Shown in pieces: positions 4,917 to 17,452 of a DNA stretch of 64,000 nt. Location of the stretch: assembly GCA_026002995.1 (NCBI GenBank), contig BPGK01000001.1, positions 1,798,001 to 1,862,000 on the forward strand. The letters are read 5' to 3'. Position 1 is the first letter of the stretch; every line of letters starts with the position of its first letter. The notes beneath the pieces are model-generated. The model ran no database searches. It saw only the letters and a list, made by a program, of their open reading frames with translations, and was not told the DNA's origin. The position numbers and the translations under genes were made by a program. The stretch is from Gaiellaceae bacterium. GTDB lineage: Bacteria; Actinomycetota; Thermoleophilia; Gaiellales; Gaiellaceae.

Positions 4917-4943
4917 TCGGTGGCCGTCGGGGATAATGAGCCG

Positions 4944-6197
4944 ATGGGCGACGCGGTCTCTCGCCTCTTCGAGCGCGTCGTGTGCGCGGTCGCCGGCGAC
5001 GGCCGCGGCCTGGAAGGCGTCCGCCAGGTCGAGCGACTGCGCGCGGGCGAGGGCTCCGTCGTGCTCGCGTCGATCGCCGAGACGCAGGTCGCGGCGCGGA
5101 CGGGCCTGCACGCGCCCGAGTGGCGCAAGGAGCTCCGTGCGGAGGCGCAGCGCGCAATCGACCGGGCGCGCGAGCTGGCGCCCGACGCGGATGCCCGGAT
5201 CGTCGACGGCGACGCCGCCCGGGCGCTCCGCTGGATCCTCGAGGACGAGGGCGCCACCCTCGTGGCGGTCGAGGACGGACGCAGCCGCGCAGCCGGGATC
5301 CTCCTGGGGAGCGTCGCCACCTCCCTGCTCCACGATGCGCCCTGCTCGGTCCTCATCGCCCGCCGCCGCGCCGACCTGGAGCGCTTTCCGTCCGAGATCG
5401 CGGTCGGCGTCGACGGCTCCCCCGAGTCGCTTCGCGCCGCCGCGGTGGCAAAGGAGCTCGGCGAGCGCGTCGGCGCGCGCGTGCGGGCGCTCGTGGCGAC
5501 CGGGGGCAAAGAGATCCGGCCCGACGAGATCGACGTCGGCCTGCCGCTCGAGTGCGACGAGCGCCCGCCGGTGGACGCGCTCGTCGCCGCGTCGGAGACG
5601 GCGGACCTCGTCGTCGTGGGGAGCCGCGGCCTGCACGGGATCCGAGTGCTCGGGAGCGTGAGCGAGCGCGTCGCACACAGGACGGCGTGCTCGGTGCTGG
5701 TCGTCCGCCTCCCGGCTCCGGCCGCGACCGGCGAGCACCTCGTCGTCCGCGACGTGATGTCTCGGCCGGCGGTCACGGCGACGCCGAACACGCCCGTCCG
5801 GGACATCGCCCGGCTCATGCTCGAGCGCGGCATGGGCTCGGTCGTCATCGTCGACGAGGAGGGCCGGATCGCGGGGATCGTCACGGAGACCGACTTCGAG
5901 ATCACCGACGAGCCGGTCGCGGACACGGCGTTCCGCTGGCCCCGCGTCCTCGGCCGCCACGTCTGGTCCGAGAGCTCGCTCAAGGAGGTGTACGCGGAGG
6001 CAGCTGCGCAGCCCGCCGAGGCGATCATGAAGTCGCCCGTCGAGACCATCGACGCGGGCACCGAGCTCTGGGAGGCGGTACGGATGCTGACGGAGAAGGG
6101 ACACAAGCGGCTGCCCGTGCTCGACGGCGGCCTGCTCGTCGGCGTCGTCTCCCAGACCGACCTTGTGAAGCTGCTCCTCGCGCGGCCCGAGGGCTGA
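4944..6197 (+). CDS. Universal stress protein with two Usp and two CBS domains
   Basis: Predicted 417-residue cytoplasmic protein. Two tandem Usp domains occupy about residues 8-140 and 148-255 and are followed by a CBS pair: DVMSRPAVTATPNTPVRDI opens the first and IMKSPVETIDAGTELWEAV the second. The second Usp domain keeps an ATP-loop-like GSRGLHGIRVLGS, two residues shorter than the usual G-x2-G-x9-G-S; the first lacks it. CBS pairs bind adenine nucleotides, so the protein probably senses energy state and conveys it to partners. The adjacent cation ATPase (stops 6 bases apart, convergent) and Mrp operon suggest, but do not prove, a role in ion or stress control. A GTG 24 bases upstream is an alternative start. 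Confidence 0.85.
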   Translation: MGDAVSRLFERVVCAVAGDGRGLEGVRQVERLRAGEGSVVLASIAETQVAARTGLHAPEWRKELRAEAQRAIDRARELAPDADARIVDGDAARALRWILEDEGATLVAVEDGRSRAAGILLGSVATSLLHDAPCSVLIARRRADLERFPSEIAVGVDGSPESLRAAAVAKELGERVGARVRALVATGGKEIRPDEIDVGLPLECDERPPVDALVAASETADLVVVGSRGLHGIRVLGSVSERVAHRTACSVLVVRLPAPAATGEHLVVRDVMSRPAVTATPNTPVRDIARLMLERGMGSVVIVDEEGRIAGIVTETDFEITDEPVADTAFRWPRVLGRHVWSESSLKEVYAEAAAQPAEAIMKSPVETIDAGTELWEAVRMLTEKGHKRLPVLDGGLLVGVVSQTDLVKLLLARPEG

Positions 6198-6202
6198 TCC
6201 CG

Positions 6203-8893
<2,691 letters not shown>

Positions 8894-10087
8894 CTACCAG
8901 CGCAGCAGCGCAGCGACGCCGCCGTGCGCGAGGAGCGGCTCCGCGGACGGCGCGGAGACGACCGTCACCTGCGCGTCCGTCGCGAGCGCGCGCTGCACGA
9001 GGTGCTCGGCGAGCGCGCTGATCGGCACGAGCTCCCCGGGGTCGACGCCGGGAGGAACGACGCCGGCCGGCACGAGCCGGCCGTCGGCGGTGCGCGCCCC
9101 CTCGCCGGTGCCTCCTTCCGAGAGCAGCAGGTGCGCGACGCGCCCTTCCTCGAGCGCCGCGAGGACGTCGGCGAGACCGAGGGCTCCGGCGTTCCCCGAG
9201 AGCGCCGCGTCGAGGGCGCGCGCAACGAGCCGCTCCTCACGTCGGCGCACCTCGTCTTCCAACTCGGAGGCCAGCGCAGCGACGACATCCGTCGGGGCGA
9301 GGCCGTGCACGTTCTTGTCGACGACCGAGATCTCCAGACGTGAGCCTCCGAGCGCCTCGGCGAGACGGTCGGCCGCCCGGCGCTCCCCCGCCGCGAGCGC
9401 ACGCTCCCAGCCCCGCTTGCCCGCGAGCTCCGCGAGACGGCGCGCCGCGTCGTCGAGCGCGCGCAGGCGGTGCTCTTCGAGCCTCCGCTCGAACAGGTCG
9501 CGCTGCGAGGCCGCGTGTTGAGCCAGCGCCGGGTTCGCGGCGGCAGGCCCCTTCAGCTCGCGCCACTCGCTCGTGTCGGGCTCGAGCGAGACGGTCACGA
9601 GCTCCTCGACGAGACCGAGGCGACGCTCGAGGACTCGGACATCGGCCTGCGTCGCGACGACGATGCCGACCGGCCGACCGCGGTCGAGCGCTGCGACGAG
9701 GGGCGAGAGGTGCACGATCTCGTCGAGAGCGACGTGGTTTCTGAGCGGGACGTGGAGCGCGACCGTGCGCAGCTCTCCTCCCTCGACCGTGGCGAAGAGC
9801 GCCCGTCCACGGCCGGGTCGGCGCGGATCGAGGAGCGCCGAGAGCTCGGGCTCCAGCTCGTCGAGGCGTTCGAAGACCGCCTTCCAGCGGGCGTGGTCGC
9901 CGTTGACCTTCACCCGCTCGCGAACGTCGCGCAGGCCGTTCTCGGTAGCCACCACCCAAGCCGGCCGCGCGGCCGCCTGCTCCTTCGGATCTGCGTCCAC
10001 GTACACGCTTACGACCCCGATCGGATCCCGGAGGCCGCTGATCTCGAGCGGGTCGACTACCGGCAGCTCGTCCGAACGGATCGCCAT
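8894..10087 (-). CDS. baeRF-like protein (bacterial/archaeal eRF1-related family)
   Basis: Predicted 397-residue cytoplasmic protein starting at ATG 10087. The N-terminal strand GVVSVYVDADP, the mid-region LDRGRPVGIVVATQADVRVLE and the C-terminal AHGGVAALLRW resemble baeRF proteins, which are relatives of eukaryotic release factor eRF1 proposed to act on stalled ribosomes or peptidyl-tRNA. A long charged helix-rich segment (about residues 180-260) separates the two globular parts. The GGQ peptide-release motif of true eRF1 is not seen. It directly precedes the P-type ATPase (adjacent stop and start) and diverges from the Mrp operon across 61 bases. Family assignment is by pattern only. Confidence 0.6.
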   Translation of the reverse strand: MAIRSDELPVVDPLEISGLRDPIGVVSVYVDADPKEQAAARPAWVVATENGLRDVRERVKVNGDHARWKAVFERLDELEPELSALLDPRRPGRGRALFATVEGGELRTVALHVPLRNHVALDEIVHLSPLVAALDRGRPVGIVVATQADVRVLERRLGLVEELVTVSLEPDTSEWRELKGPAAANPALAQHAASQRDLFERRLEEHRLRALDDAARRLAELAGKRGWERALAAGERRAADRLAEALGGSRLEISVVDKNVHGLAPTDVVAALASELEDEVRRREERLVARALDAALSGNAGALGLADVLAALEEGRVAHLLLSEGGTGEGARTADGRLVPAGVVPPGVDPGELVPISALAEHLVQRALATDAQVTVVSAPSAEPLLAHGGVAALLRW

Positions 10088-10148
10088 ACCCCCAGTCAAC
10101 CACGTCGGAGCTGGGTCCGGCTCGCCCAGGCGTCTAGGCTTGCCGGGG

Positions 10149-12380
10149 ATGAGCCTCCCCGCCCGGGTTTCCGCGGCCCTCGCAGCGCTTGCGTTCGTCC
10201 TCACACTCGCCGGCTGGTGGAGCGGTAGTCCCGGCATCGACCTGCCGTGGGCGCCCAGCCTCGGCCTCCGCCTCTCCTTCGAGCTCGACGGGCTGGGCGT
10301 CCTCTACAGCCTCCTCGCCACCGGGATCGGCTTCGCGGTCGTTCTCTACTCCGGCGCGTACGTCCCGCTCCACCTCGAGCACCAGCAGCGCCCGCATCGA
10401 GACGAGGTGCGCTTCTTCGGCCTGCTGCTCCTCTTCATGGTGTCCATGGTCGGTCTCGCCACGGCCCGGGATCTGATCCTCCTCTTCGTCTTCTGGGACC
10501 TGACCGCGATCGCGTCCTACTTCCTCATCGGGTACGACCGGCAGGAGGCCGAGGCCCGGACGGCGGCGCTCATGGCGCTCGTCGTGACCGGGGTCACCGC
10601 GGTGCTGCTCCTGATCGGGACACTCGTCCTGTACGCGGAGTACGGAACCTTCTCCATCCCCGAGCTCGTCGCTTCCGTCGAGCCAGGCGGTACGGTCACC
10701 CTCGCCGCGACGCTGATGGCGCTCGCCGGCCTGGCGAAGTGCGCACAGGTGCCGTTCCACTTCTGGCTCCCGCGCGCGATGGCCGCCCCCTCGCCCGTCT
10801 CCGCGTACCTGCACGCGGCAGCGATGGTTGCGGCCGGGGTCTTCCTCCTCGGGCGCATCTACCCGTTCCTCGAGACGAGCGAGCTCCTCCTCGACGGGCT
10901 CGTCGTCGTCGGCTTCGCCTCGATGTTCGTCGGCGGGATCGTCGCCCTCACGCGGGATCGCCTGAAGCAGCTCCTCGCCTACTCCACGGTCTCGCAGTAC
11001 GGCTACGTCGTCGTCCTGTACGGCCTCGGCGACACGGTCGGCGTGGTGGGGGCGAGCTTCTACGTCATCGCGCACGCGCTCGCGAAGAGCGCGCTCTTCC
11101 TCACGGCGGGCGCGGTTGCGGAAGCGACGGGAGAGCGCCGCCTCTCCGAACTCGGCGGGCTCCGTCGCGCGATGCCTGCCCTCGCCCTCGGCAGCGGCCT
11201 CGCCGCCGCGGGGCTCGCAGCGCTCCCGCTCACGATCGGCTTCTTCAAGGACGAGCTCTTCTTCCAGGCGGGAGTCGAGCGGTCGCCGGGGATCGCCGTG
11301 CTCACGATTCTCGGGGCGGCGCTGACTTTCGCCTACATCGGGCGCTTCTGGATCGGGGTCTTCCTCGGCCCGACGCGCGCTCCCGCCCACCGCGTGAGCG
11401 CCCTACTCACGGGGCCGGTCGTCGCGCTCGGCGGGCTCGTCCTCGTCGGCGGGCTCTTGCCCGAACCGTTCGTGGCACTCGCGAACGCCGCGGCGGAGGC
11501 GAGCCTCGGCGCAGCAGCCTCGGTCGACGTCTTCTACCACCTCGATGCGCGCGCGGAGAACCTCATGGCGCTCTCCGCGTACGCGATCGGCGCAGCTGCG
11601 CTCGCGGCTCCGCGCGTCTGGCGCGCGGCCGCGGAGACGTGCGCCCGGCTCGGCGAGCGGCTCGGCCCGGAGCGCGTCTACGTCGCGACGATCCGTAGCC
11701 TCAACGAGACCTCTGACCGCATCCACGGAATCGAGGTGCGCGACCTCCGCACGCGGATCGCGGCGATCCTCGTCCCCGGCGGACTCCTCGTGCTGCTCGG
11801 TCTGCTCGCAACGCCGACGGCCGGGGCGTACACGGTGGGATCGCTCGACCGCGGCGACACGGCGCTCGTCCTCGTCTTGGCGACGGCCGCGCTCGCAGCC
11901 ATCGCCACGACGCTTCCGCGTCAGCACCTCACGCTCCTCCTCGTCGCCGCGAGCGTCGGCTTCAGTCTCGCCGTCGTCTACGCCTTCCTCGGCGGGCCGG
12001 ACGTCGCGCTCGTCGCAGTGCTCGTGGAGACGACCCTCACCCTGCTCTTCATCGGCGTCTTCGCCCTCATGCCGCGCGCCTCCCTCAGGCGGCTCGCCGC
12101 GCTGAGGACCCCCCCGACGCGGCGCTGGCGCGACCCGCTCGTCGGGGCTGCGGCAGCGCTCGCCGCGTTCCTCGTCGTCTGGGGCGCGCTCTCGCGCCCG
12201 AGCGTCGGCGAGAGCGTGGCCGAGGAGCACGTCCGCCTCACCCCCGACGCGCACGCGAAGGACGTCGTGACGGCGATCCTCACCGACTTCCGCGGGCTCG
12301 ACACGCTCGGCGAGATCACCGTGGTCGCGATCGCGTTCTTCGGCATCGCCACGCTCCTCCGCAGAGGGAGGCTCTCGTGA
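10149..12380 (+). CDS. mrpA: Mrp Na+/H+ antiporter subunit A
   Basis: Predicted 743-residue polytopic membrane protein, homologous to complex I subunit NuoL, and the largest subunit of the Mrp antiporter. The proton-channel core includes ILLFVFWDLTAIASYFLIGY (about 105-125), KCAQVPFHFWLPRAMAAPSPVSAYLHAA (Lys-HFWLP motif, about 197-224) and the half-channel region RDRLKQLLAYSTVSQYGYV. The C-terminal part carries MrpB-like/MbhD- and MbhE-like segments, including DFRGLDTLGEI near the end. It is shorter than many MrpA proteins but appears complete. The ATG at 10149 follows a weak ggggat element. It overlaps mrpB by four bases. Confidence 0.93.
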   Translation: MSLPARVSAALAALAFVLTLAGWWSGSPGIDLPWAPSLGLRLSFELDGLGVLYSLLATGIGFAVVLYSGAYVPLHLEHQQRPHRDEVRFFGLLLLFMVSMVGLATARDLILLFVFWDLTAIASYFLIGYDRQEAEARTAALMALVVTGVTAVLLLIGTLVLYAEYGTFSIPELVASVEPGGTVTLAATLMALAGLAKCAQVPFHFWLPRAMAAPSPVSAYLHAAAMVAAGVFLLGRIYPFLETSELLLDGLVVVGFASMFVGGIVALTRDRLKQLLAYSTVSQYGYVVVLYGLGDTVGVVGASFYVIAHALAKSALFLTAGAVAEATGERRLSELGGLRRAMPALALGSGLAAAGLAALPLTIGFFKDELFFQAGVERSPGIAVLTILGAALTFAYIGRFWIGVFLGPTRAPAHRVSALLTGPVVALGGLVLVGGLLPEPFVALANAAAEASLGAAASVDVFYHLDARAENLMALSAYAIGAAALAAPRVWRAAAETCARLGERLGPERVYVATIRSLNETSDRIHGIEVRDLRTRIAAILVPGGLLVLLGLLATPTAGAYTVGSLDRGDTALVLVLATAALAAIATTLPRQHLTLLLVAASVGFSLAVVYAFLGGPDVALVAVLVETTLTLLFIGVFALMPRASLRRLAALRTPPTRRWRDPLVGAAAALAAFLVVWGALSRPSVGESVAEEHVRLTPDAHAKDVVTAILTDFRGLDTLGEITVVAIAFFGIATLLRRGRLS

Positions 12381-12814
12381 CGTCGCTCCTGACGCAGGTG
12401 GTCGTGCGACTCCTGCTCGCGCCGACGATCGTGATCGCCGCCGCCGTTCTCGCAAAGGGGTACTCGAGCGTGGGCGACGGCTTCAGCGCCGGCGTCATCG
12501 CCGCGCTCGGCGTCATCGCCGTGTACCTCGTGCTCGGGGCGGAGCAGGCCGATCGCCTCCTGCCCGTGCGCCTCGCCCCCGTCGGCGCGATCGCGGGGCT
12601 CCTCATCACCCTCGTCGTGACCTTCTCGTCCGTCGTGCGCGGGGAGCCGCTGCTCACGCACGCCCCTCCCCCGGGGGCCGACGTGATCCATCTCGGCACG
12701 CTTGAGCTGATCACAGCCGTCGCCTTCGACGTCGGCGTCTTCCTGCTCGTCTTCGGCGCGGTCGTCGGGATCCTCCGCACGGTCGCCCTGGCCCGCTCGG
12801 AGGCCGGCTCGTGA
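12377..12814 (+). CDS. mrpB: Mrp antiporter subunit B
   Basis: Predicted 145-residue membrane protein of the MnhB/MrpB family. It has four hydrophobic segments and the conserved features GDGFSAGVIAAL (about 35-46) and ELITAVAFDVGVFLLVFG (about 112-129). It is a structural subunit of the antiporter membrane complex with no catalytic motif of its own. The GTG start lies inside the last codons of mrpA (GTGA overlap), and its own end overlaps mrpC the same way, so expression of the subunits is coupled. Confidence 0.92.
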   Translation: MTSLLTQVVVRLLLAPTIVIAAAVLAKGYSSVGDGFSAGVIAALGVIAVYLVLGAEQADRLLPVRLAPVGAIAGLLITLVVTFSSVVRGEPLLTHAPPPGADVIHLGTLELITAVAFDVGVFLLVFGAVVGILRTVALARSEAGS

Positions 12815-13182
12815 TCCTCCTCCTCTCCGCTGTCGTCGCGGTTCTCTTCGGAGCCGGAGCCTTCCTCGTGCTGAAGACAGACCTGCTCCGCGTCGTCGTC
12901 GGGATGGTGCTCATCTCCCACGCCGCGAACCTCACGCTCATGGCGAGCGGGCTCACGCGCGGGAAGGCGCCGATCTACCCGCTCCCGAACGGCGAGGTCA
13001 GCGACCCGCTCGTCCAGGCGATGACGCTGACCGCCCTCGTCATCGGGTTCGGCGTGACCGCGCTCCTGCTCGGGATCGCCTACCGCGTGTACGAGACCCA
13101 CTTCGCCGTCGACTTCGACCGCCTGGCGGAGGAGGAGGCCCGCCGGGAGGCGGAGCTCGAGCAGGAGGAGGTGTCGGTGTGA
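12811..13182 (+). CDS. mrpC: Mrp antiporter subunit C (NuoK-like)
   Basis: Predicted 123-residue membrane protein with three helices, homologous to NuoK. Family features are LLRVVVGMVLISHAANLTLM and DPLVQAMTLTALVIGFGVTA. A short charged, Glu-rich tail (about 105-122) lies on the cytoplasmic side. GTG start, with overlaps at both ends to mrpB and mrpD. Together with MrpA and MrpD it forms the complex I-like proton and sodium path. Confidence 0.93.
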   Translation: MILLLSAVVAVLFGAGAFLVLKTDLLRVVVGMVLISHAANLTLMASGLTRGKAPIYPLPNGEVSDPLVQAMTLTALVIGFGVTALLLGIAYRVYETHFAVDFDRLAEEEARREAELEQEEVSV

Positions 13183-14561
13183 CGCTCGTCCTGCCGCTCG
13201 CGATCCCGTGGTTTGCCGCCGTCGCACTCGCCGCCCTCGACGGGCGCCGGCCGGCCGTCGGCTGGGCCGCGGTCGCTTCGCTCGCAGCCGCGCTCGTCGC
13301 GACCGCCGCGCTCGCGATCCGCGTCTGGACGGAAGGGCCGGTCGAGACCGTCACCGGAGGCTGGCCGGTCGGCGTCGGGATCACACTGCGCGCCGACGCC
13401 CTGAGCGTCCTGTTCTCCCTCCTCACGCTCGCGGTTCTCGTCGTCTGCCTCGCCCATGAGGTCCTCTCCGGCATCGAGTCGCGCCTCTTCCCCGCGCTCG
13501 TGGCCTTCATGACCGTCGGGCTCACCGGCCTCTTCCTGACAGGCGACATCTTCAGCTTCTACGTCTTCTTCGAGATCGCGATGGTCTCGGCGTACGTGAT
13601 CACGGGGTACGGCGGCCGGCCGCGGCAGATCAGCGCCGCCTTCGTCTTCGCGGTCGTCAACCTGCTCGGGTCGTTCGTCTTCCTGATCGCGATCGCGGCG
13701 ACCTACCACGTGACCGGATCGCTCGAGATGGGGCAGGTCGCCGAGCGGATCGCGGACGTCGAGCCGAGCACGGTCATCCTCATCGCCGTCACCGTCTTCG
13801 TCGCCTTCGGAGTCAAGCTGGGTCTTTTCCCGTTCCACTTCTGGCTCCCGGTCGTGTACGCGAGCGTGCGCCCGGCGGTCGCCGCGATCCTGAGCGGCGC
13901 GCTCGCGAACATCGGAACGTACGGCGTCCTCCGCTTCGGCGCCGACGTGTTCCCACGCGAGCTCGAGTTCAGCGCGAGCGCCCTCGTCGTTCTCGGCGTG
14001 ATCACGATCCTGTACGGGGCGATGCAGGCGATGTCGCGGCGGACCGCGCCGGAGGTGATCGCGTACTCGTCGATCGGCCAGGTCGGGTACGTCCTGATCG
14101 CGCTCGCGATCGGCGGGCCGATCGGGTACGCGGCCGCGGTGCTGTACGCGATCCTGAACTCCCTCAACAAGGTGCTTCTGTTCCTCGCCTCGGGGCTCCG
14201 CGGCTGGCTCGTCGGGGCGGCGTTCTTCGTGGGCGTGATCAGCGTCGCGGGCATACCCCCGGCTGCGGGGTTCTTCGGGAAGCTCGAGGTCTTCCGGGCG
14301 GCGATCGAGGACGCGAGCGTCACGCTCGTCGCACTCCTCTTCCTGGGCGGCGCCCTCTCCGTCGTCTACCTGCTCCAGATCTACCAGCACGTCTACTGGC
14401 GCCCCGGCGGCGTCGCGGCGGGGGGCGAGGCGAGTCCTGTCGTCCTGCGCGCGCTCACGTTCGCGGTCGCGCTGGTCGTCCTCGCGCTCGGCCTCTGGCC
14501 CGAGCCGCTGCTCGCGGCGAGCCGTGCGGCGGCCGAGGTGCTCGTCGGAGGCCCCGAATGA
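13179..14561 (+). CDS. mrpD: Mrp antiporter subunit D (NuoN/NuoM-like)
   Basis: Predicted 460-residue membrane protein, homologous to complex I antiporter-like subunits. Key landmarks are FFEIAMVSAYVITGYGG (about 129-145, with the conserved Glu of the proton channel), KLGLFPFHFWLPVVYASVRP (Lys plus HFWLP) and AYSSIGQVGYVLIALAIGGP. About 12-14 transmembrane helices are expected. The start is a GTG within the mrpC stop region. Its ATGA-type overlap with mrpE keeps subunit stoichiometry tied. Length is typical. Confidence 0.93.
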   Translation: MTLVLPLAIPWFAAVALAALDGRRPAVGWAAVASLAAALVATAALAIRVWTEGPVETVTGGWPVGVGITLRADALSVLFSLLTLAVLVVCLAHEVLSGIESRLFPALVAFMTVGLTGLFLTGDIFSFYVFFEIAMVSAYVITGYGGRPRQISAAFVFAVVNLLGSFVFLIAIAATYHVTGSLEMGQVAERIADVEPSTVILIAVTVFVAFGVKLGLFPFHFWLPVVYASVRPAVAAILSGALANIGTYGVLRFGADVFPRELEFSASALVVLGVITILYGAMQAMSRRTAPEVIAYSSIGQVGYVLIALAIGGPIGYAAAVLYAILNSLNKVLLFLASGLRGWLVGAAFFVGVISVAGIPPAAGFFGKLEVFRAAIEDASVTLVALLFLGGALSVVYLLQIYQHVYWRPGGVAAGGEASPVVLRALTFAVALVVLALGLWPEPLLAASRAAAEVLVGGPE

Positions 14562-15052
14562 GCCGGACCGTGCTCGCGCTCGTCCTCCTGACGGTCGTCT
14601 ACGCGCTTGCGCTCGCGAGCTTCGACCCGTGGGACGTCGCGCTCGGGCTCGGCGCGTCTGCGACGACGCTCCTGATCTTCCGACGCCTCCTCCTCGGCGA
14701 CAGGACGGCCCCGATCGAGGGATTGGTACGTCGCGCGATCGGCCTCCCGCGCCTCGTCTGGCGCATCGTCGTCGACATCACGGTCGGCACCTGGCGCGTC
14801 GCCACGGTCGTGCTCCACCTGAGACCGCTCGAGCATCCGGGAATCGTCGTCATCCCGCTCGGCGAGCGGACCGAGCTGGGAGCCGTGATGAGCGCGTACC
14901 TGAGCACGCTCTCGCCCGGAGAGTGCGTGGTCGACATCGACTGGGAGCGTCGCTGCCTGCTCATGCACGTGCTCGACGCGGGCGACCCCGACGCCGTGCG
15001 CGCTCGATTCGCGCGCTTCTACGAGGACTGCCAGCGGAGGGTGGTTCCCTAG
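14558..15052 (+). CDS. mrpE: Mrp antiporter subunit E
   Basis: Predicted 164-residue MnhE/MrpE family protein. Hydrophobic N-terminal helices (about 1-45) are followed by an amphipathic region and a cytoplasmic C-terminal domain. Recognisable stretches are LPRLVWRIVVDI and the TLSPGE...DIDWERRCLLMHVLD segment typical of MrpE. ATG start overlapping the mrpD stop. The TAG stop at 15050 overlaps the GTG of mrpF. Confidence 0.9.
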   Translation: MSRTVLALVLLTVVYALALASFDPWDVALGLGASATTLLIFRRLLLGDRTAPIEGLVRRAIGLPRLVWRIVVDITVGTWRVATVVLHLRPLEHPGIVVIPLGERTELGAVMSAYLSTLSPGECVVDIDWERRCLLMHVLDAGDPDAVRARFARFYEDCQRRVVP

Positions 15053-15324
15053 TGCATACGGCCGTCTTCACCGCAGCCGCGGTCTGGATGACCGTGCTCC
15101 TCGGGGCGAGCATCGTCCTCGTGATCCGCGCCCGCTCGCTCGGAAGCCGGATCCTCTCGCTCGACATGGCCGTCTTGATCGTGATCGGATTGCTCGTACT
15201 CCTCTCCGACGTCGAGCGCGTGCCGTACTTCCTCGACGCGGCGCTCGTGCTCGCGCTCCTCTCCTTCGTCGCCACCGTCGCCGCCGCCCGGTACCACGAG
15301 TCCGAAGGGGAGCTGTTCAGGTGA
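15052..15324 (+). CDS. mrpF: Mrp antiporter subunit F
   Basis: Predicted 90-residue membrane protein with three helices. The motif SLGSRILSLDMAVLIVIG matches the conserved Arg-Asp region of MnhF/MrpF. It starts at a GTG that shares a base with the mrpE stop (TAGTG), and its end overlaps mrpG. Small MrpF proteins are easily missed by gene finders; here position in the operon and motif together make the call secure. Confidence 0.9.
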   Translation: MHTAVFTAAAVWMTVLLGASIVLVIRARSLGSRILSLDMAVLIVIGLLVLLSDVERVPYFLDAALVLALLSFVATVAAARYHESEGELFR

Positions 15325-16094
15325 TCGTGATTCCCTGGGTCGCGGATGCTCTCGTCGTGCTCGCGCTCGTCGTGATGACCGTCGGCGTCTATGGGATCCG
15401 GCGGATGCCGGACGTCTACACGCAGCTCCACGCCACGAGCAAGGCGGTCGTCCTCGGCGTGATCGCCATTCTCGTCGCGTCCGCGGTCAGCGGCGATCCC
15501 GAGATCATCCTTCGCCTCGTCCTGATCGGCATCTTCCTCCTCCTCACGACGCCGGTCTCCGCGCACGTCGTCGCGCGGGCTGCGTATCGTCGGCGAGAGC
15601 CCATGACGACGCCCGGCGCCATCGACGAGTCCGGACGCGGCCTGACTGCGGCAGCGCGCAACGGCGAGGAAGACGGGTCGAGGCGGCAAGGCTCCGAACT
15701 GCGCGAGATCGTCGTCGGCTACGACGGCTCTGAGTCGTCCCGGCGAGCGCTCGAGCGCGCCGCCCAGCTCGTGGCCGAGGACGGCCGTGTCACGCTCGTC
15801 ACCGCGGGCTCGATCCTCCCGTCCACCCCGGGGGGAAATGTGGACGAGATCGACGAGCGCCGGCGCGTGCTGCTCGAGGGCCGCAAGCGCCTCGCCGCGC
15901 TCGGCATTCGGGCCGACGTCGTCGAGGCCGTCGGCGACCCGACGGACGCGATCATCGAGACGGCTCGTGATCTCGACGCCGACCTCATCGTCGTCGGTAC
16001 CCGCGGCCGCAACGTCGCGGCGCGCGTCCTACTCGGCTCCGTCTCCACGGCGGTCGTGAACGCAGCGCCCTGCGACGTGCTCGTCGTCCGCTGA
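15321..16094 (+). CDS. mrpG: MrpG fused to a universal stress protein domain
   Basis: Predicted 257-residue two-part protein. Residues 1-90 are MrpG: three membrane helices and the conserved GVYGIRRMPDVYTQLHATSK. A hydrophilic linker (about 91-126) leads to a complete Usp domain (127-257), which starts REIVVGYDGSESSRRALERA and ends with the ATP-binding loop GTRGRNVAARVLLGS, an exact G-x2-G-x9-G-S match. The usual MrpG is about 110-130 residues, so the extra domain is a genuine fusion with no stop or frame change at the junction. It places a probable ATP-binding stress sensor on the cytoplasmic face of the antiporter. Last gene of the operon. Confidence 0.9.
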   Translation: MIVIPWVADALVVLALVVMTVGVYGIRRMPDVYTQLHATSKAVVLGVIAILVASAVSGDPEIILRLVLIGIFLLLTTPVSAHVVARAAYRRREPMTTPGAIDESGRGLTAAARNGEEDGSRRQGSELREIVVGYDGSESSRRALERAAQLVAEDGRVTLVTAGSILPSTPGGNVDEIDERRRVLLEGRKRLAALGIRADVVEAVGDPTDAIIETARDLDADLIVVGTRGRNVAARVLLGSVSTAVVNAAPCDVLVVR

Positions 16095-16100
16095 GCGCGC

Positions 16101-16817
16101 TCACACCGGAGCGGACACGACGATCGGATCGCTCGTCGGCGCGGTAGCGCCACCTGCGGCCTCGACTGTGACGGCGACGACGTCTCCTCGTGTGACCTTC
16201 TCGGTCAGGAGCGCGACGGCGAGCGGCTCGCCACCCTCGAAGAGCCCGCCGGACTTCGCTCTCGTGAGGTCGCCGTCGGGCACGATCCAGAGCTGGTACG
16301 TCGAGCCTGGCGCAACCCGCTCGAGCTGCCGCAAGACGACAACGGCACGCCCGTCCGGCGAGACGAGCAGGCGCCCTTGGCCGGCCTCGAGGGAGACGAC
16401 GCGGCTGCCAGGATCCGAGAGCAGCGCCGCCGCCGCCCGTGCTGTCGCGAGCGCGGAGCGCGCCTCGTCGAGATCCGAGCGCAGGCTCGCCGCCCAGAGC
16501 CCGACACCGAGGGCGACAGCCGCGGCGAGCGCGGTGACGGCGGCGAGCCCCTGCACAAGCCGGTCGGAGCGCCGCCGGAGCGGGACGATGACCTGCGCCT
16601 CCGCCCGTGCGGCGGCCAGGATCCGTGTCCGGAGCTCGGCCGGCGGGGACGGCCCGGACGCGGCGATCGCGAGCTCCTCGGTCGTCCGCCACATCGTCGC
16701 AAGCTCGTCGCGGCAGCGGTGACACGATTCCAGGTGGCGCTCGTAGCGCGCGCGCTCCTCTGCCTCGAGCGCGTCGAGCGCGTACGCAGCCGTCAGGTCG
16801 TGAAGGTCGTGTCCCAT
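16101..16817 (-). CDS. Anti-sigma factor with zinc-finger and RskA domains
   Basis: Predicted 238-residue membrane-anchored anti-sigma factor. An N-terminal cytoplasmic anti-sigma domain (about 1-60) contains the zinc-type motif H-x3-C-x2-C in HLESCHRC. One membrane helix spans about residues 90-110 (LAAVTALAAAVALGVGLWAA), and the external C-terminal domain is RskA-like (GSTYQLWIVPDGDL, GLF-EGGEPLAVAL). It would hold the cognate ECF sigma factor inactive until released by membrane-linked proteolysis. Its start lies 25 bases inside the sigma factor gene, which fits a coupled sigma/anti-sigma pair. Confidence 0.9.
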   Translation of the reverse strand: MGHDLHDLTAAYALDALEAEERARYERHLESCHRCRDELATMWRTTEELAIAASGPSPPAELRTRILAAARAEAQVIVPLRRRSDRLVQGLAAVTALAAAVALGVGLWAASLRSDLDEARSALATARAAAALLSDPGSRVVSLEAGQGRLLVSPDGRAVVVLRQLERVAPGSTYQLWIVPDGDLTRAKSGGLFEGGEPLAVALLTEKVTRGDVVAVTVEAAGGATAPTSDPIVVSAPV

Positions 16818-17377
16818 GCTCCGGTCTGTTCGTCGAGAAGCTCCCGCAGCCGCGCGAGCCCGGAGAACATCCTGCTCTTGATCGTGCCGAGGGGCACGCC
16901 CAACCGCTCGGCCAGCTCGGCCTGCGAGAACCCGCCGTAGTAGGCGAGCTCGATCGCCTCGCGCTGTGCGTCGGGCAGACGGGCGAGCGCACCTTGCACA
17001 CGCTCGCGCTCGAGACGGAGCCAGGCGACGTCCTCCGCGGACGCAGCCTCTCCCGCGGCGCGGCCCTCCGCGAGCGGGTCCGCCCGCCGACGATCCTCAC
17101 GGCGGACGAGATCGACGGCGCGACGGTGCACGAGCGTGAGGATCCAGGTGCTCGCCTTCGCGCGGTCCGCCCGGTAGCCGGTAGCGCCGCGCCACACCCC
17201 GAGGAAGGCCTCCTGCACGGCGTCCTCGGCGAGACGCTCGTCGCGCAGAACGCGGAGCGCGAGCCCGTAGGCGATCCGCCCGAGTCGGTCGTAGAGCTCG
17301 CCGAGAGCCTTGTCGTCGCCTCTCCCCACGAGGGCGACGAGCGCCTCGTCGGACAGGTGCGTGTGCTCTCGTCGCAT
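16793..17377 (-). CDS. ECF-type RNA polymerase sigma factor (SigK-like)
   Basis: Predicted 194-residue sigma-70 family factor with only regions 2 and 4. Region 2 includes LYDRLGRIAYGLALRVL and AEDAVQEAFLGVWR (about 30-65). Region 4 includes ALARLPDAQREAIELAYYGG and the helix-turn-helix SQAELAERLGVPLGTIKSRM (about 150-170). ATG at 17377 was chosen because the 21 residues of the longer frame look non-coding. The gene order secreted protein, sigma, anti-sigma on one strand suggests an autoregulated operon. The inducing signal is unknown. Confidence 0.9.
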   Translation of the reverse strand: MRREHTHLSDEALVALVGRGDDKALGELYDRLGRIAYGLALRVLRDERLAEDAVQEAFLGVWRGATGYRADRAKASTWILTLVHRRAVDLVRREDRRRADPLAEGRAAGEAASAEDVAWLRLERERVQGALARLPDAQREAIELAYYGGFSQAELAERLGVPLGTIKSRMFSGLARLRELLDEQTGAWDTTFTT

Positions 17378-17452
17378 GCGCGTGGCCGTCGCCGTGGACA
17401 ACGCTAGCAACGGAGTCACCGGCTCTCGGACGAGCTCCACGAGCGCTGGCCC

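Follow-up and report, generated by a model that had tools for sequence, protein, structure and literature searches.

The mrp operon and its fused last gene

The window, by which we mean the whole 64,000-nucleotide stretch of DNA analysed here, carries on its forward strand a complete mrp operon, as had been claimed in the preliminary description, with seven separate subunit genes A to G that are each matched by their own Pfam family. The first of these, mrpA (10146..12380; PF00361, PF13244 and PF20501), was aligned with 7d3u_A, 7qru_A and 6z16_A; its open reading frame as listed (935 aa, from 9573) is over-extended at the 5' end, since homology begins near 10146, where the true start is placed. 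It is followed by mrpB (12377..12814; PF04039), mrpC (12811..13182; PF00420), for which the best NCBIfam models are those of MrpC, with scores below their cut-offs, mrpD (13179..14561; PF00361; E 2e-52 against 6z16_D), mrpE (14558..15052; PF01899) and mrpF (15052..15324; PF04066). Judged by gene content, the operon would encode a group 1 Mrp antiporter, a group defined by seven separate subunits A to G (grouping according to PMC9568556), and Na+/H+ antiport is its predicted activity. The same gene order and subunit families are found in the group 1 Mrp (CPA3) systems of Bacillus pseudofirmus (7qru) and Anoxybacillus flavithermus (6z16), whose key acidic residues in MrpA and MrpD and whose MrpG proline are also kept here, with the equivalents of MrpA E687 and MrpD E137 read from the alignments. 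The difference lies in MrpG, the chains of which comprise 119 and 133 residues without a universal stress protein (Usp) domain in 7qru and 6z16, whereas the MrpG of the window bears such a domain at its C-terminus.

This fusion gene (mrpG-usp, 15321..16094, 257 aa) is the last of the operon, and its GTG start codon overlaps the TGA stop of mrpF. In it PF03334 and then PF00582 are matched within a single open frame of 257 codons, and neither a stop nor a change of frame occurs near 15600-15700 in the window sequence, so that MrpG does run unbroken into Usp. The MrpG part (residues 1-90; 15321..15590) contains three membrane helices (3-28, 32-57 and 60-90), is covered by PF03334 at residues 11-89 (E 1.8e-22; 79.8 bits against a cut-off of 23.4) and also passes the NCBIfam equivalog model of MrpG, TIGR01300 (74.2 bits against 63.1). 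Its Pro78 (codon 15552..15554) aligns with P86 of 6z16_G, the proline that is essential in the MrpG of A. flavithermus (PMC7419157). Residues 91-127 (15591..15701) combine a conserved MrpG tail (REPM-TPGAIDESGR) with a flexible linker, about 37 residues in all, and lead into the Usp domain (residues 128-257; 15702..16091; PF00582, E 1.1e-30; 107.4 bits against a cut-off of 24). The nucleotide loop described earlier as intact, GTRGRNVAARVLLGS at residues 226-240 (15996..16040), fits G-2x-G-9x-G-S exactly, and the strand-1 Asp of ATP-binding Usp proteins of the MJ0577 type is present in VVGYDGS (residues 131-137). The possibility that the Usp half is translated on its own, starting at the ATG at 15603, was considered and rejected, because that Met is part of the tail conserved in unfused MrpG. 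The fusion contains the sole MrpG of this closed genome, in which seven further Usp domain matches were found, of which one scores under the cut-off of the family.

An AlphaFold model built on an alignment of 70 rows (pLDDT 82.7) shows three helices, a low-confidence linker at 91-127 and a Usp fold, which at a pTM of 0.58 is left without a confident placement relative to the membrane part. The MrpG part best matches 7qru_G (Z 9.9), and the Usp fold reaches Z 15-20 against many solved Usp structures. The balance of K+R against D+E is 0/0 at the N-terminus, 3/1 in loop 1-2, 0/2 in loop 2-3 and 8/7 in the C-terminal tail and linker, where RRRE directly follows helix 3. Positive charges on loop 1-2 and just after helix 3 therefore point to an N-out, C-in topology, which is consistent with the three-helix model and would place the Usp domain in the cytoplasm.

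Another genome of the same genus (G004) encodes the same MrpG-Usp fusion, 67-68% identical, and every indel between the two genes is a whole codon. Ka and Ks between them are 0.165 and 0.72 for the MrpG half and about 0.28 and about 0.70 for the Usp half, which is thus, on these substitution rates, under purifying selection. Because a second genome has the fusion too, with whole-codon indels and a Usp half under constraint, the fusion is not a sequencing accident. An assembly or frameshift artefact that joined two genes has nothing found in its favour; the gene is a single frame both in the closed contig of 2.62 Mb and in the relative, which was assembled independently, and we regard such an artefact as a negligible prospect.

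Distribution and origin of the fusion

The survey of MrpG homologues comprised relatives, the order, even samples of the class and the phylum, and further fetched regions, and yielded 122 distinct MrpG genes whose 3' side was read over at most 1.4 kb, and over less where a locus was shorter. Three of them are fused (the window, G004 and G052), three have a separate tandem usp gene directly 3' of mrpG (G037, G181 and G153), in 113 the stretch read downstream contains no Usp, and three loci end too soon to judge; early searches, in which the whole fusion was the query, favour Usp neighbours for that very reason, and later ones used the MrpG family alone. The earlier statement that standard MrpG lacks a Usp domain agrees with these counts, and the fusion is rare in the phylum surveyed. 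No Usp first appeared at a later same-strand position in any of the 122 loci: wherever one was found it adjoined mrpG. A scan of genome contigs with the fusion as query found both halves only in the same-genus MAG, and tblastn of the fusion against a plasmid collection gave 171 partly matching records, none of which covered 80% of the query. A short stretch in the tail of the G033 MrpG (VTVAGDGRRRL) was considered as a Usp remnant and is too short to be claimed as one.

The three fusions do not share one clade of MrpG. G052 encodes MrpG-Usp-Usp with both loops intact, and its MrpG groups within a different clade, supported at 100/100, whose other members are unfused; the tail shared by the window, G004, G037 and others is absent from it. 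Since a single clade of the three fusions is rejected by the AU test (lnL difference 69.9, p-AU 1.2e-18), the MrpG phylogeny indicates that the fusion arose at least twice. The fusions apparently arose from coupled neighbour genes. In G037 the stop of an unfused mrpG overlaps the start of usp as GTGA, a translationally coupled layout from which stop loss by a small shift would yield a fusion, and loss of the stop codon between coupled mrpG and usp is probably how it came about. The Usp tree places the domains of the window and G004 in one group (99/92), to which the first Usp of G037 is nearest by path; this suggests that the fused Usp stems from a neighbour gene like that of G037, in a tree whose deeper forks lack resolution.

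Such an origin allows for a nearly neutral event, in which the stop between two coupled genes was lost and both halves kept their old independent tasks, so that the linkage has no effect. The long disordered linker, the overlapping precursor layout in G037 and the single narrow lineage known for each origin all speak for it; yet purifying selection acts on both halves, the fusion has been kept in two genomes that are about 68% identical, and it was repeated in another clade. We therefore consider it decidedly unlikely.

Somewhat less improbable, and still doubtful in our judgement, is that the domain is an ordinary stress protein (a nucleotide store, a chaperone-like factor or an assembly aid) that was fused only for co-expression and membrane localisation and takes no part in the regulation of transport. 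Many non-transport roles of Usp proteins have been described (PMC3673472), and the separate usp genes beside mrpG in three genomes imply that tethering is not required. Against this stand two independent fusions at the same subunit end with no Usp at other nearby downstream positions, which suggests that the site of fusion matters.

A candidate nucleotide-responsive regulator

To our knowledge, little has been established about how Mrp antiporters are controlled at the protein level. Here a natural fusion ties a candidate regulator to one particular subunit, beside the proposed entry of Na+; from the unfused neighbours one would expect free tandem Usp proteins to act on Mrp in other actinobacteria. 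The preliminary description had proposed that an ATP-binding sensor is tethered to the cytoplasmic face of the antiporter. The tethering, and a domain of the nucleotide-binding type, are upheld by the family matches, the motif, the AlphaFold model and the positive-inside charges, whereas sensing of ATP and gating of ion exchange are steps that we infer.

As to the ligand, Z differences under 1 were taken as ties, and it cannot be read from the fold because the best match, the cAMP-bound MSMEG_3811 (5ahw, Z 19.7), and the ATP-binding TeaD (3hgm, Z 19.0) lie within 1 Z of each other; a Thermus Usp (2z09, Z 18.5), MJ0577 (Z 18.2) and the c-di-AMP-binding Usp of KdpD are also among the matches. 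By fold and motif, cAMP or c-di-AMP would thus be as possible a ligand as ATP. The cAMP-binding type represented by MSMEG_3811 and Rv1636 (5ahw and 1tq8) is nearest in fold, with 38% identity, but consists of free-standing soluble proteins. TeaD shares the Usp fold and the nucleotide loop and is likewise linked to a transporter, the TRAP system TeaABC that serves in osmotic stress; it differs in being a separate soluble protein whose transporter is unrelated to Mrp. The Usp of KdpD (7ji4) is similar in belonging to a protein of cation homeostasis, whereas KdpD is a sensor kinase that acts on transcription, and identity in the structural alignment is 15%. As cited in PMC8280820, TeaABC transports more when TeaD is deleted, and oligomerisation of TeaD is promoted by ATP; PMC4686210 and PMC8214093 report that the KdpD Usp binds c-di-AMP.

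Because TeaD restrains its transporter and the KdpD domain binds a second messenger, regulation is the role we infer as likeliest, and with moderate confidence we read the gene as an MrpG with a cytoplasmic tethered Usp that most likely acts as a nucleotide-responsive regulator of antiport. In published structures, the essential proline bends helix 3 of MrpG at its contact with the ferredoxin-fold domain of MrpE on the cytoplasmic side, a site proposed as a gate for Na+ entry, and MrpG S72 lies at the close contact of two protomers (PMC7419157). The Usp domain would bind ATP, AMP, cAMP or c-di-AMP as its adenine nucleotide and, held by its linker near helix 3 and the MrpE domain, would alter Na+ access or the state of the complex, so that antiport would track the energy or second-messenger state of the cell, much as TeaD acts on TeaABC. 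It might do so by blocking or opening the MrpE/MrpG entry in a nucleotide-dependent way or, alternatively, by nucleotide-dependent pairing with its counterpart on the second protomer. Mrp complexes are dimers in which MrpG lies close to the contact of the two protomers, so that such pairing of single Usp domains across the complex is conceivable; in the tandem forms the pair would be built into one chain. MrpG tolerates a His6-FLAG tag at its C-terminus (PMC9568556). The Usp domain is dispensable for core antiport, because most Mrp complexes work without it and several genomes of the same genus have no MrpG at all. The purifying selection on the Usp half would suit any role of a Usp and does not single out the regulation of transport.

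A wider reading, which we put forward tentatively, is that a branch of Mrp has a built-in nucleotide or second-messenger gate, in which a C-terminal Usp of MrpG over the Na+ entry would switch antiport. Such a gate would have arisen at least twice, out of tandem Usp regulators encoded in the operon, and the Mrp dimer would supply the Usp pair. Fusions of Usp to Na+/H+ antiporter, Cl- channel or permease domains are known in general (reviewed in PMC8509486) and embody the same idea of a Usp on an ion transporter, with the antiporter domains named only in general terms. In the open-access papers searched, no report was found of a Usp fused to any subunit of the multi-subunit Mrp complex, and relative to those papers it is the Mrp subunit as fusion partner that is new here.

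Neighbouring genes

Cation transport and Usp genes cluster in this stretch. A P-type ATPase of the Ca2+ type (6203-8893, reverse strand) lies near the mrp operon, and 5 bases from the end of its gene ends that of a Usp-Usp-CBS-CBS protein (425 aa; 4920-6197, forward strand). The domain order is swapped in G004, where a CBS-CBS-Usp-Usp protein (430 aa; L034 10760-12052, reverse strand) is convergent with the mrpG-usp gene at a distance of 15 bases. In G037, a further long frame with Usp domains (L032 12988-14736, reverse strand) is located a few kilobases from the mrp operon. A baeRF-type protein (archaeo-eukaryotic release factor-like; 8894-10237, reverse strand) is divergent from mrpA, and genes for an RskA-type anti-sigma factor and an ECF sigma factor (16101-17440, reverse strand) converge on the fusion gene, 6 bases apart from it.
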